A stretch of DNA of 24,485 nucleotides. It comes from a virus. This document shows, one piece after another, positions 17,542 to 21,296 of this stretch. The stretch lies in the IMG/VR virus record IMGVR_UViG_3300006870_000085, positions 1-24,485 of that record; one strand, 5' to 3'. Each line of letters starts with the position of its first letter. Position 1 is the first letter of the stretch. The translations under genes and the position numbers were made by a program. A model generated the notes under the pieces. The model did no database searches. It was not told the origin of the DNA and saw only the letters and a program-made list of their open reading frames with translations.

Positions 17542-17565
17542 ATACTAGTGATAGTGAGGATATAT

Positions 17566-17880
17566 ATGCTGTCTACGCAATATCGATTGAGACTCGAATT
17601 CATTTGCAAGTGTATTGTGAATGGGGAAGAAGTAAAACTTGAAGATATGATATGGGCAGAGAAATTGTCAAAGGCAAATACATCTGCCCGAGAGATGTTA
17701 AAAAAAGCAAGAAGACAATCTGCTGGAGATATTGAAGAAGGTAGTATTGATGATTTTATGAATAGGATGGGGCTAGGAGATCCCGACCCATCCAATTATA
17801 AAACGGGATTTGATAGTGCTGATGAAATCGTTGATTGGTTCAAACAAGACAAACCAGATGATTGGCGGCAGAGAGACTGA
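17566..17880 (+). CDS. Conserved cyanophage-type protein of unknown function
   Basis: The frame is open from about 17548, but ATG 17566 is preferred because GAGGA (17556-17560) lies five bases before it. The 104-residue protein begins YRLRLEFICKCIVNGEEVKL, then MIWAEKLSKANTSAREML and KKARRQSAGDIEEG, and ends with an acidic, Trp-containing tail (ADEIVDWFKQDKPDDWRQRD). I recall similar E.I...I..GE.V.L.DM.WA.KLA..N..A...L..ARR proteins in cyanophages as conserved hypotheticals. The tail suggests an interaction surface. The gene ends at TGA 17878-17880 and is followed at once by the first terminator/promoter module, so it is the end of the recombination transcription unit. Confidence 0.78.
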   Translation: MLSTQYRLRLEFICKCIVNGEEVKLEDMIWAEKLSKANTSAREMLKKARRQSAGDIEEGSIDDFMNRMGLGDPDPSNYKTGFDSADEIVDWFKQDKPDDWRQRD

Positions 17881-17886
17881 GGCCAA

Positions 17887-17903
17887 TTTTCAAACTGTCC
17901 ACT
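17887..17903 (+). repeat. Conserved 17-nt box, copy 1 (TTTTCAAACTGTCCACT)
   Basis: The box occurs directly after the stop codon of the upstream gene, just before a terminator hairpin. It differs at one base (T/G) from the copy at 20125-20141. Both copies share the order stop codon, box, hairpin, T-run, TTGTATAAT. Being outside genes and placed identically, it is unlikely to be chance. It might bind a protein or extend the RNA structure of the terminator. Confidence 0.8.
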
Positions 17904-17904
17904 A

Positions 17905-17929
17905 GGGGGTCGCAAGACCCTCTTTTTTT
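17905..17929 (+). terminator. Intrinsic terminator, module 1
   Basis: GGGGGTC (17905-17911) pairs with GACCCTC (17916-17922), including one G-U pair, around a GCAA tetraloop, then seven T residues. It should end the gp55-to-17880 transcript. It sits just before a TATAAT, so one short stretch ends one unit and may start the next. Confidence 0.87.
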
Positions 17930-17930
17930 G

Positions 17931-17936
17931 TATAAT
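17931..17936 (+). promoter_or_regulatory. Putative -10 box before the CobT-like gene
   Basis: TATAAT, preceded by TTG, lies 21 bases before ATG 17958, giving a leader of roughly 15 bases. No TTGACA-like -35 is found 16-18 bases upstream, because that space is the terminator stem. The promoter may depend on an activator, perhaps through the conserved 17-nt box. Identity rests on the perfect -10 and its repetition in module 2. Confidence 0.6.
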
Positions 17937-17957
17937 AGGCCCATACGCAACAGACCT

Positions 17958-20120
17958 ATGGCAGTCCTACACGAAATCAAGTCCCAACTTGCAAAACTGC
18001 TTGCCACGGAAGACTTGATCGTGGAGCATAAGAATGTTGAAACCGCTTGTTTCAATGTTCATACTCGCGTTCTGACTCTTCCTATGTGGGAGAAAGCGAG
18101 TAATGTTGTTTATGATCTTCTTGTGGGTCATGAAGTTGGCCATGCACTGTTCACTCCAGATGAAGACTGGTCAAAAAACCATAAAATTCCTCCTCAGTTT
18201 GTCAATGTTGTTGAGGATGCACGTATTGAAAAACTGATGAAACGTAAATATCCTGGATTGTCCAAGACTTTCTTTAGGGGATATAGTGAACTATCTGATA
18301 ATGATTTCTTTTCTCTTGAAGATGAGGACATCTCCGAATTCAATCTTGCTGATAGGTTGAATCTGTGGTTCAAGATTGGTAATTACGTTGATATTCCCAT
18401 TGAACGTGGTGAAGAGATGGATATTGTCAATATGGTTGCCGACTCAGAAACCTTTGCGGATGCACTTTTAGCCGCAGAAGTACTTTACAAATACTGTAAA
18501 GAACATCAGGATACTAAGAAAAAAGTTGATAACATCAATAATACCGATGGTCAATCAAATTCGGGTTCTGAACCTCAAGATTTTGTTGAAAATGATTCTG
18601 ATAATGGTGAAGAGTCTGATGATACTGGTGAGTCCGATGAAAAAGTGAATGATGATGCTGATCTTGATACTCCCAGTTATGAAGGTCAACAATCTGATTC
18701 TGAGGAACCAAAAGTTCATACTGAAAGTTCTTTTGAGGAAAACCTCAAAGATCTAATCAACAAAAATTCTTTCGAGAATGTTTATATTGAGCTTCCACAA
18801 GTTAATCTCGAAACAGTCGTTGTTGACTATACTGAAATTCACAAATATGCAAATGAGTCATATGCTGAACAGCAGAAAATTTCTGATGATGTGGATAAAA
18901 CATATTCTCGGGTAAATAAAAATATTTTTGCATCTGCAGACAAAGCGTATATGTCTTATAAAAAGTCTGCTCAAAAAGAGGTAAACTATCTTGTAAAGGA
19001 GTTTGAGTGTAAAAAATCTGCTGAATCATATTCCCGTGCAACAGTGTCCAAAACTGGTGTTCTTGACTGTACCAAACTTCATACCTACAAATACAATGAA
19101 GATTTGTTTAAAAAAGTAACCACTCTTGCAGATGGTAAGAATCATGGTCTCGTCTTTGTTCTAGATTGGTCTGGATCAATGGCTGATATTATGTTGGATA
19201 CTGTAAAACAGTTGTTCAATTTGATCTGGTTCTGCAAAAAAACAAATATTCCTTTTGAGGTATATGCATTTACTAATAACTGGAAACGTATAACTTATGA
19301 TGAGAATGATAAACCAGTTTATCCAAAAAAACATTATGAGTACAAAAATGGACTAGTCCAAGTCTCTCCAGATTTTTGTCTGATGAACTTCATCAGCAAT
19401 CGCACCAAAACCAGTCAATTTGAAAATTGTATGCGTAACATCTGGAGGATGGCCTATTCATATCGTAACTATGTTTTCTATTCATCTCCAAAGCAACTTG
19501 AACTTTCAGGAACTCCTTTGAATGAAGCATTGATTTCTCTTAATCAGGTTCTTCCAAAATTTCAAAAAAATAATAAACTTCAAAAGGTTCAGTGTGTGGT
19601 ACTGACTGATGGTGAAGCACATCCATTGAATCGTCACTATGAACTGATGCGTAAGTGGGATACTGAACCATACATGGGAACTCGTTCGATTGATCCATCA
19701 GTAACTTTCCTAAGGGATCGTAAACTTGGAAAAACCTATAAGTTTGGGTACAATTATCATGATTTTACAGAAACCATTTTGAATAATCTTCAGGATAGGT
19801 TCCCATATGTCAACTTTATTGGGATTCGTGTTCTTCTTCCCCGTGAAGCATCTCGTTTCATGCGCCTATATACAAATTATGATCATGAAAAAGTTTCTCA
19901 ACTTGAAAATAGCTGGAAGAAAAACCGTAGTTTTGTCATGAAGAATATTGGATATGATGCATACTTTGGAATTTCTTCAAATGCACTTTCTCAGGAAACT
20001 GAGTTTGATGTAAAAGATGATGCAACTAAAGCCCAGATTCGTTCTGCATTCAAGAAGTCTCTTTCTTCTAAGAAGATGAATAAAAAGATCCTGTCAGAAT
20101 TCATCTCTCTGGTCGTCTGA
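17958..20120 (+). CDS. CobT-like protein with HEVGH motif and VWA/MIDAS domain
   Basis: The frame is open further upstream, but ATG 17958 is chosen because the TATAAT at 17931 falls just before it. The product has 720 residues. The N-terminal domain contains HEVGH at 58-62 with E86-D87 in VNVVEDARIEKLMKRKYPG, a zinc-peptidase-like arrangement (H58, H62 and E86 as ligands, E59 as base). A long acidic low-complexity linker follows (about 200-255). The C-terminal VWA domain has DWSGS (D403, S405, S407), T519 in SGTPLNEAL and D551 in LTDGEAH, a complete MIDAS metal site. An ED.RIE segment, acidic middle and C-terminal VWA are the layout of CobT, the partner of CobS in aerobic cobaltochelatase. 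The next gene is CobS-like, supporting a paired complex. It is cytoplasmic (no signal peptide). Substrate unknown; the function as chelatase is not proven. Confidence 0.85.
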   Translation: MAVLHEIKSQLAKLLATEDLIVEHKNVETACFNVHTRVLTLPMWEKASNVVYDLLVGHEVGHALFTPDEDWSKNHKIPPQFVNVVEDARIEKLMKRKYPGLSKTFFRGYSELSDNDFFSLEDEDISEFNLADRLNLWFKIGNYVDIPIERGEEMDIVNMVADSETFADALLAAEVLYKYCKEHQDTKKKVDNINNTDGQSNSGSEPQDFVENDSDNGEESDDTGESDEKVNDDADLDTPSYEGQQSDSEEPKVHTESSFEENLKDLINKNSFENVYIELPQVNLETVVVDYTEIHKYANESYAEQQKISDDVDKTYSRVNKNIFASADKAYMSYKKSAQKEVNYLVKEFECKKSAESYSRATVSKTGVLDCTKLHTYKYNEDLFKKVTTLADGKNHGLVFVLDWSGSMADIMLDTVKQLFNLIWFCKKTNIPFEVYAFTNNWKRITYDENDKPVYPKKHYEYKNGLVQVSPDFCLMNFISNRTKTSQFENCMRNIWRMAYSYRNYVFYSSPKQLELSGTPLNEALISLNQVLPKFQKNNKLQKVQCVVLTDGEAHPLNRHYELMRKWDTEPYMGTRSIDPSVTFLRDRKLGKTYKFGYNYHDFTETILNNLQDRFPYVNFIGIRVLLPREASRFMRLYTNYDHEKVSQLENSWKKNRSFVMKNIGYDAYFGISSNALSQETEFDVKDDATKAQIRSAFKKSLSSKKMNKKILSEFISLVV

Positions 20121-20124
20121 CCAC

Positions 20125-20141
20125 TTTTCAAACTGGCCACT
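20125..20141 (+). repeat. Conserved 17-nt box, copy 2 (TTTTCAAACTGGCCACT)
   Basis: This copy follows the stop of the CobT-like gene by four bases and matches copy 1 at sixteen of seventeen positions. The distance to the following TATAAT is 29 bases here and 27 in copy 1. The surrounding hairpin sequences differ, so conservation is specific to the box rather than the entire intergenic region. Confidence 0.8.
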
Positions 20142-20144
20142 GAG

Positions 20145-20165
20145 GGGGGTTGGAACCCCCTTTTT
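20145..20165 (+). terminator. Intrinsic terminator, module 2
   Basis: GGGGGT (20145-20150) pairs with ACCCCC (20155-20160) around a four-base TGGA loop, followed by five T residues. It ends the CobT-like transcript before the CobS-like gene. Different stem sequence from module 1 but the same position and shape. Confidence 0.82.
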
Positions 20166-20170
20166 CATTG

Positions 20171-20176
20171 TATAAT
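20171..20176 (+). promoter_or_regulatory. Putative -10 box before the CobS-like gene
   Basis: TATAAT preceded by TTG, 22 bases before ATG 20199, repeats the arrangement of module 1. A poor -35 candidate TTGGAA (20150-20155) is 15 bases away, inside the hairpin. The leader would be short and has no Shine-Dalgarno. Confidence 0.6.
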
Positions 20177-20198
20177 TACTTCAGTTCAAACAAACGAC

Positions 20199-21296
20199 AT
20201 GACCATCTCTTCTGAGTACATCATTACTAGTCTTCAAAATCTTTATGGTAACTCTGTGAGCTCTGGTGACATCCGTGCTTGGTGTGCAATGAATGGTTCT
20301 AACTATCAGACCATTACCAACAAATTGGCCGACTACAAAGTTGGTCGTGGTAAGTGGAACCTTACCGTTCGGGAACAGATGGAACAAACCTATCAAGCAC
20401 CTTCTGTGCAACCTGCTGTAGAACAAAACCTTATTCCTCAAAAAGATGATACCTTCGTCCAGTTTGGTAATTTCAAAGATATTAAAAAAATTATTCAGTC
20501 CCGTCTTTTCTATCCTACGTTCATTACGGGTCTTTCTGGTAACGGCAAAACGTTCTCTGTTGAGCAAGCGTGTGCCTCTCTAAATAGGGAGTTAATTCGT
20601 GTGAACATTACCATTGAGACTGACGAGGATGATCTTATTGGTGGTTTCCGTCTTGTTAATGGCGAAACTGTCTGGCACAATGGACCCGTTATCGAAGCTC
20701 TGGAAAGGGGAGCTGTGCTGCTTCTAGACGAGGTTGACCTTGCCTCTAACAAGATTCTCTGTCTGCAGTCTGTGTTGGAAGGAAAGGGTGTCTTCTTGAA
20801 GAAGATTGGTAAGTATGTCAAACCCGCTTCTGGTTTCAATGTGATTGCTACTGCCAACACCAAGGGTAAGGGTTCTGATGACGGTCGTTTCATTGGCACC
20901 AATGTTTTGAATGAGGCATTTCTTGAGCGTTTCCCTGTGACCTTTGAGCAGTCTTATCCCGCCCCTGCAACCGAGCAAAAGATTCTGGAGGGCATTGCTC
21001 TGGATCTTGGCTTGGAAGATCGTGATTTCTGTAAGCGTCTTGTAGATTGGGGTGATATCATCCGCAAGACATTCTATGATGGTGGCGTTGATGAGATCAT
21101 TTCTACTCGCCGCTTGGTTCACATTATTCGTGCATATTCCATCTTCAACGATAAGGCAAAGGCTATTCAAATTTGCCTGAATCGCTTTGATGATGAAACC
21201 AAACAATCTTTTATTGAACTGTATGACAAAGTTGACGCCGACTTCCAACTCCCTGTGGATGGAGTACAAGAAAGTACTGTGGGAAACATTTCCTGA
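20199..21296 (+). CDS. cobS: CobS-like AAA+ ATPase (MoxR group)
   Basis: This 365-residue protein has an N-terminal extension (1-85) and then a MoxR/CobS-type AAA+ core: Walker A GLSGNGKT (111-118), the pre-sensor insert region DEDDLIGGFRLVNGETVWHN with GPVIEALERG, Walker B LLLDEVD (D177, E178), sensor 1 FNVIATANT with N220, and FLERF with the candidate arginine finger R244. In the family, CobS joins CobT and a magnesium-chelatase-like large subunit to insert cobalt into the corrin ring. Cyanophage cobS genes are known, while their cyanobacterial hosts use another (anaerobic) route, so its actual target is debated. Here the neighbour is CobT-like, implying a MoxR-VWA remodelling pair, possibly with a different substrate. 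The C-terminal codons overlap the PebS frame. Confidence 0.9.
   Translation: MTISSEYIITSLQNLYGNSVSSGDIRAWCAMNGSNYQTITNKLADYKVGRGKWNLTVREQMEQTYQAPSVQPAVEQNLIPQKDDTFVQFGNFKDIKKIIQSRLFYPTFITGLSGNGKTFSVEQACASLNRELIRVNITIETDEDDLIGGFRLVNGETVWHNGPVIEALERGAVLLLDEVDLASNKILCLQSVLEGKGVFLKKIGKYVKPASGFNVIATANTKGKGSDDGRFIGTNVLNEAFLERFPVTFEQSYPAPATEQKILEGIALDLGLEDRDFCKRLVDWGDIIRKTFYDGGVDEIISTRRLVHIIRAYSIFNDKAKAIQICLNRFDDETKQSFIELYDKVDADFQLPVDGVQESTVGNIS

Follow-up and report, generated by a model that had tools for sequence, protein, structure and literature searches.

According to Liu et al. (2021, PMC8651126), the cyanophage core genome includes a cobST gene pair, which occurs in viruses of eight host orders. 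These authors regarded the 'peptidase' label as an error and suggested that viral CobST borrows the host CobN for vitamin B12. The cobS gene belongs to the core of the most abundant marine myoviruses and serves as a community marker, and surveys count it as a B12 auxiliary metabolic gene; one survey names it 'cobalamin synthetase' and in the same paper gives the phage function as unknown. That name appears to be a clash with a different enteric CobS. Here the pair is analyzed in IMG/VR record IMGVR_UViG_3300006870_000085, a 24,485-bp fragment of a T4-like cyanophage (the whole stretch is referred to as the window), where adjacent genes encode a 720-aa CobT-like protein and a 365-aa CobS-like ATPase.

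The pair is read here as a protein-remodelling machine, built of an AAA+ ATPase and a VWA protein with a metallopeptidase-like head, that would act on protein and has a client probably belonging to replication or recombination. The probability of this reading is put at about 0.5. The cobST pairing itself is already published; new are a zincin signature that is conserved in phages and missing from sampled cellular CobT, a VWA domain similar to that of midasin, and host evidence against a B12 role. If the pair is indeed a protein-remodelling or protein-cleaving machine, B12 metabolic inferences drawn from cobS will have to be revised, and a component that is universal in T4-like cyanophages but unexplained can be put to the test.

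Motifs, predicted fold and family of the CobT-like protein

The metal ion-dependent adhesion site (MIDAS) of the 720-aa protein reads D403-W-S405-G-S407, with T519 and D551 in addition. These five residues, together with H58, E59, H62, E86, D87, R89 and E91, are invariant in an alignment of 28 homologs, 27 of which are 54–66% identical to the window protein. The HExGH motif, an ED-x-RIE-like segment and DxSxS are each present in 80/80 IMG/VR homologs. The motifs are kept far beyond chance.

An N-terminal HExxH is also displayed by CobT-like proteins of phages with other hosts, i.e. Ochrobactrum, Pelagibacter, Rhizobium, E. coli, Salmonella, Klebsiella and Roseobacter phages, an oyster-associated cobavirus relative and Vibrio phage ICP2. 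When 14 divergent phage N-terminal domains (N-domains) are aligned, the only invariant columns are P42, H58, E59, H62, N83, D87 and G100; random placement over 215 positions would put the three HExxH residues among seven invariant columns with a probability of about 2 in 100,000 (Stenotrophomonas phage ANB28, discussed below, is excluded from this count). Thus the HExxH site pointed out in the earlier note is real, invariant in the 28 homologs and present as HExGH in all of the IMG/VR set. With the zincin signature intact and conserved in phages, the 'peptidase' label is not simply a mistake. A literature search limited to open-licence papers showed no description of the viral CobT HExxH.

In the full-length model a linker of about 68 residues, with a predicted local distance difference test score (pLDDT) under 50, lies between the N-domain and the VWA domain. 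A Foldseek search with the whole protein returned VWA matches only, and the N-domain was therefore modelled alone. This model is a confident one (pLDDT 88.6, predicted template modelling score (pTM) 0.83) and displays three strands, a helix at 49–65 that contains HEVGH and a helix at 79–97 that contains E86. A second comparison of the Foldseek matches gives Z-scores of 7.1 for ArdC, 6.5 for selecase, 6.3 for abylysin, 6.2 for ZMPSTE24, 6.0 for Wss1, 5.7 for BlaR1 and 5.3 for PprI, a ranking that covers only the matches listed. Among these the top PDB matches are mostly HExxH metalloproteins, with M1 peptidases and PprI/IrrE among them. The predicted N-domain thus resembles minigluzincin-type zinc peptidases, the argument being the consistency of the list, since each score is modest. 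The gluzincin/minigluzincin pattern of HExxH plus a downstream Glu in a matching fold is present, the two helices carrying the residues.

The best single N-domain match among those listed, the antirestriction protein ArdC, brings in the idea of counter-defence or host takeover, in which the metallopeptidase-like domain would inactivate a host protein. There is no PADLOC match, however, and the genes, which belong to the myo-cyanophage core, lie beside replication genes, whereas most anti-defence genes are expected in variable positions. This explanation is considered very unlikely.

The VWA model aligns with the MIDAS domain of midasin over 225 residues (Z 15.9, root-mean-square deviation 3.8) and with the VWA domain of NorD (Z 14.8), where ordinary VWA domains score about 11. 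The DxSxS, T and D residues of the MIDAS are all found within the VWA fold. A joining of HEVGH and the MIDAS residues into one site, considered in the earlier note, is not supported, as the model places them in separate domains across the low-pLDDT linker.

Direct searches of Pfam and NCBIfam with the 720-aa protein give no significant CobT match; Pfam CobT families PF06213 and PF11775 show none at E<1, and PF06213 has none in the window. Direct PDB searches with the protein or its profile yield no meaningful relative. In profile-profile comparison, the cyanophage family matches seven phage CobTs over the N-domain (98.2%, E 2.9e-14), pairing HEVGHALF with HEVAHILF and NVVEDARIEK with NALEDVFIER. 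All seven of these reference proteins are over the CobT_C cut-off and five are over the CobT cut-off. These seven proteins themselves match cellular CobT along most of their length (100%, E 2.3e-59), while the direct match of the cyanophage family to cellular CobT is weak (74.4%, E 2.7e-5). The cyanophage protein is therefore a distant CobT homolog, linked stepwise through the phage CobTs, and profile homology and shared architecture place it in the wider CobT superfamily. The CobT kinship claimed previously is thus seen by profile-profile comparison and not by direct family search, which goes part of the way towards a refutation that the earlier note had named.

An HExxH motif is absent from alphaproteobacterial CobT in all 80 loci sampled (mostly Hyphomicrobiales) and in 50 further open reading frames that include divergent ones (0/130 in total). 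The HHDxxxH of cellular CobT is not claimed to be the HExxH site; the two fail to line up in HHalign.

The CobS-like ATPase and its pairing with the CobT-like gene

The ATPase displays Walker A GLSGNGKT (at 111), Walker B LLLDE (to 178), sensor-1 N220, arginine finger R244 and sensor-2 R304, and these motor residues do not vary among 65 CobS-like proteins of phages. It belongs to Pfam AAA_5 (E 1.6e-18), which places it in the MoxR/CobS clade of AAA+ proteins. The identities first proposed for the two proteins, a VWA protein similar to CobT and a MoxR/CobS ATPase, are supported. The PDB sequence relatives are CobS (E 2.5e-22), midasin, NorQ and CbbQ. A short region at the N-terminus of cyanophage CobS (20199–20400) shows a conserved RG-x-W-x-L, missing in Ochrobactrum phage CobS, and could act as an adaptor or bind nucleic acid.

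NorQ and NorD are among the closest matches for the two proteins, which agrees with an activation of metal centres, in which the pair would remodel a phage or host metalloenzyme (e.g. ribonucleotide reductase or an Fe oxygenase) in the manner of NorQD/CbbQO so that a metal can enter, the HExxH domain serving in metal delivery and not as a protease. Both reductases that score below the class II cut-off and 2OG-Fe(II) oxygenases are encoded by T4-like relatives. However, no metalloenzyme gene consistently adjoins the pair across lineages, and the likeness of the N-domain is to peptidases and not to metallochaperones. On balance such a role is unlikely.

A tblastn search finds the large protein in 463 phage records and the full-length ATPase in 460, with identical tallies for both genes by group (Synechococcus 365, Cyanophage 61, Prochlorococcus 24). 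Where an IMG/VR locus leaves room for it, a CobS gene nearly always follows downstream (69 of 73 loci). Co-occurrence thus bears out a pair in place of an orphan cobS, and nearly all T4-like ocean cyanophages carry the two genes as neighbours. The CobT–CobS pairing recurs in unrelated phages.

The pair adjoins gp46 and gp45 (clamp) in T4-like phages, with gp47 also near. In SSU5 and PhiR41_1 the gene for DNA polymerase III (Pol III) alpha is found 181 bp downstream of the pair, and in RHEph10, ANB28, ICP2 and T5S1 Pol III alpha, a primase or a polymerase is situated at most 1.4 kb away.

Several loci outside of these groups are also of note. Gordonia phage GodonK gp105 (L088:4176-8795) contains HETGH and DVSGS and lies near an AAA_5 ATPase, and it matches no Pfam or PHROG family; it may represent an independent branch of this machine. 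In a Staphylococcus Kayvirus (L086:3812-5798) and an Acinetobacter phage (L089:4479-6695) an AAA_5 ATPase of this clade adjoins a DUF7192 protein (PF23822). These two were rejected as further examples of the pair, the DUF7192 neighbour having neither HExxH nor a recognisable MIDAS, but ATPase and DUF7192 protein are possibly another ATPase–partner pair. The CobS-like locus of Alteromonas phage R22Y was also rejected as a pair, with no HExxH/VWA partner seen.

Proposed mechanism and the B12 question

In the proposed mechanism the CobS-like protein would form an ATP-driven ring on which the CobT-like protein docks, and the MIDAS metal would grip an acidic residue of the target protein. The N-terminal zincin-type, minigluzincin-like domain, with its HExxH...ED metal site, may then clip the target or handle metal. 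The phage machine would work on protein and not in cobalt insertion into B12. The likeliest clients would be proteins of the replication or recombination apparatus or proteins that block DNA; replication and recombination proteins are suggested because gp46/gp47, the clamp, Pol III alpha, polymerase and primase genes lie nearby, which is suggestive only. A bolder version is rated quite unlikely; in it, phage CobST would be AAA+-powered metalloproteases that both unfold and clip replication-fork proteins, as a counterpart of Wss1/SPRTN combined with an unfoldase, and the B12 chelatase would derive from such a machine in bacteria by loss of the protease site.

Several observations weigh against the reading as a remodelling machine with a metallopeptidase-like head. 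E86, kept in the other 13 of the 14 divergent phage N-domains, is replaced in ICP2. The CobT of ANB28 lacks both zinc-site histidines (DREVSTLLYTD) and keeps the VWA domain and the partner gene. The N-domain Z-scores are only 5–7, and the HExxH could be inactive or have a structural metal-binding role. The proximity of replication genes, viewed lineage by lineage, is weak evidence noticed post hoc, since phage genes of all kinds cluster there and the modules are compact, and such proximity is not seen in CRP-810 and GodonK. Finally, B12 assistance in cyanobacteria is still conceivable, because cyanobacteria carry CobN-family genes.

This last point concerns the published proposal (Liu et al., 2021, PMC8651126) in its specific form, in which viral CobS and CobT are auxiliary metabolic proteins that join host CobN in a hybrid cobaltochelatase and yield more cobalamin. 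Synechococcus elongatus has CobN-family genes and no CobT, as this proposal would have it, and T5S1, a phage that bears the pair, encodes a class II (B12-dependent) ribonucleotide reductase that scores over the cut-off. T5S1 is the only exception, however, as the other 9 of 10 CobT-bearing records show no class II reductase match over the cut-off. No CobN is encoded in the 11 phage records examined, which agrees with the earlier remark that no CobN-like subunit accompanies the pair. The suggestion made there of a target other than a tetrapyrrole is plausible. The host evidence is also contrary. E. coli phage PhiR41_1 (host K-12) has an HExxH-bearing CobT and a CobS, and E. coli, one of the control genomes, has no CobN. 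Vibrio cholerae, the host of ICP2, to our knowledge has no de novo corrin ring synthesis. The window ATPase itself scores 66.8 bits against the CobS equivalog TIGR01650, about 490 bits short of the 558.55-bit cut-off, and cellular CobT manages without the HExxH that phages keep.

Cellular genomes point in the same direction. A sample of 142 alphaproteobacterial genomes contains 107 with CobT and 55 with a CobN-family gene; CobT without such a gene occurs in 55, a figure raised by incomplete assemblies to an unknown extent. Over half of the CobT-bearing genomes thus show no CobN-family gene, and the CobST of cells may often serve another purpose. Caulobacter, a control genome, has CobT and CobS with CobN absent. 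Because CobN is missing in the phages, in E. coli and in many CobT genomes including Caulobacter, the chelatase role does not appear to be the general role of CobST, and in cells CobST may serve an undescribed purpose in addition to B12. The B12 explanation looks weak as a general rule, and for the phage pair it is rated improbable.

Layout of the window and comparison with known systems

The gene order in the window is terminase, tail sheath and tube, portal, prohead protease and major capsid protein, then UvsW, gp55, gp47, gp46, the CobT-like gene, the CobS-like gene, sliding clamp and speD. Genes are identified from the open reading frames of the window and from the annotation of Synechococcus phage S-T4, the closest phage (88% identity across 95% of 9.5 kb). 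Both reading frames of the pair are open without internal stops, and the two genes, HEVGH, EDARIE, the acidic linker, the full MIDAS and the complete ATPase are found where the earlier note had placed them (Table 1). A conserved small gene (T4 GC0049 in S-T4) is situated between gp46 and the CobT-like gene at 17548–17880.

A stem element that reads CAAACTG[T/G]CCACT, a GC stem, a T run and GTATAAT is present twice and is also found in S-T4 and in loci L001 and L014; at exact match the window contains no copies beyond these two. Since each gene is preceded by its own copy, the CobT-like and CobS-like genes look separately but similarly transcribed.

Table 1. Coordinates of features of the CobT-like and CobS-like genes (window positions unless a locus is given)
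Feature	Position	Strand	Evidence or remark
Terminator-like stem + GTATAAT ahead of CobT-like gene	17891..17957	+	same place in S-T4
CobT-like VWA protein, 720 aa	17958..20120	+	PHROG 459 'peptidase' (phrog_459 E 4.1e-266)
Minigluzincin-like N-terminal domain (predicted), about residues 1-191	17958..18530	+	model pLDDT 88.6, pTM 0.83; zinc-peptidase PDB matches
HEVGH, residues 58-62	18129..18143	+	H58, E59, H62 invariant in 28 homologs and 14 divergent phage proteins
EDARIE, residues 86-91; E86 candidate third metal ligand	18213..18230	+	homolog alignments
Acidic linker of low complexity (predicted disorder), residues 191-258	18528..18731	+	pLDDT below 50
VWA domain, about residues 395-680, MIDAS D403, S405, S407, T519, D551	19140..19997	+	midasin/NorD fold matches; residues invariant
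Second copy of terminator-like stem + GTATAAT, ahead of CobS-like gene	20129..20198	+	same place in S-T4
CobS/MoxR-type AAA+ ATPase, 365 aa (PHROG 249)	20199..21296	+	AAA_5, PDB CobS, invariant motor residues
CobT of Stenotrophomonas phage ANB28	L092:4846-6831		natural inactive variant of zinc site

The viral CobST pair of Liu et al. (PHROG 459, 1576 and 17276 with 249) consists of the same genes, and the cyanophage pair was already core there. The difference lies in the reading, a mistaken label and B12 in that work, against a zincin signature that the present analysis finds intact and kept by phages. The bacterial cobaltochelatase CobS/CobT (PDB 9ujv, 9uka) likewise combines an AAA+ ring subunit with a protein that has a homologous N-domain, an acidic linker and a C-terminal VWA domain; however, cellular CobT has no HExxH in the 130 sequences sampled, the Pfam CobT models do not match the cyanophage protein and the phages have no CobN.

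The DUF2201 VWA-like metallopeptidases (PF13203/PF09967) also carry an HExxH domain before a VWA domain, but the motif spacing differs from that of the phage protein, which has no Pfam match to the family, and DUF2201 was rejected as the parent family. The minigluzincins selecase and abylysin, Wss1, ArdC and PprI/IrrE share the predicted N-domain fold, with an HExxH helix followed by a Glu helix. Unlike the phage protein they stand alone or have no VWA domain attached, and the Z-scores are low.

NorQ/NorD and CbbQ/CbbO are also two-gene systems of a MoxR ATPase and a VWA protein; their clients, in contrast, are metalloenzymes. We know of no report of an intact HExxH domain in NorD. Midasin (MDN1/Rea1) gives the best VWA match and a strong ATPase similarity. 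It differs from the phage pair in being a single giant chain of eukaryotes that has six AAA domains, lacks an HExxH domain and acts in ribosome assembly. The MIDAS of midasin grips the client and the AAA+ part pulls. By analogy with CobST, NorQD and midasin, the phage pair would be a two-component remodelling machine of the MoxR–VWA kind.

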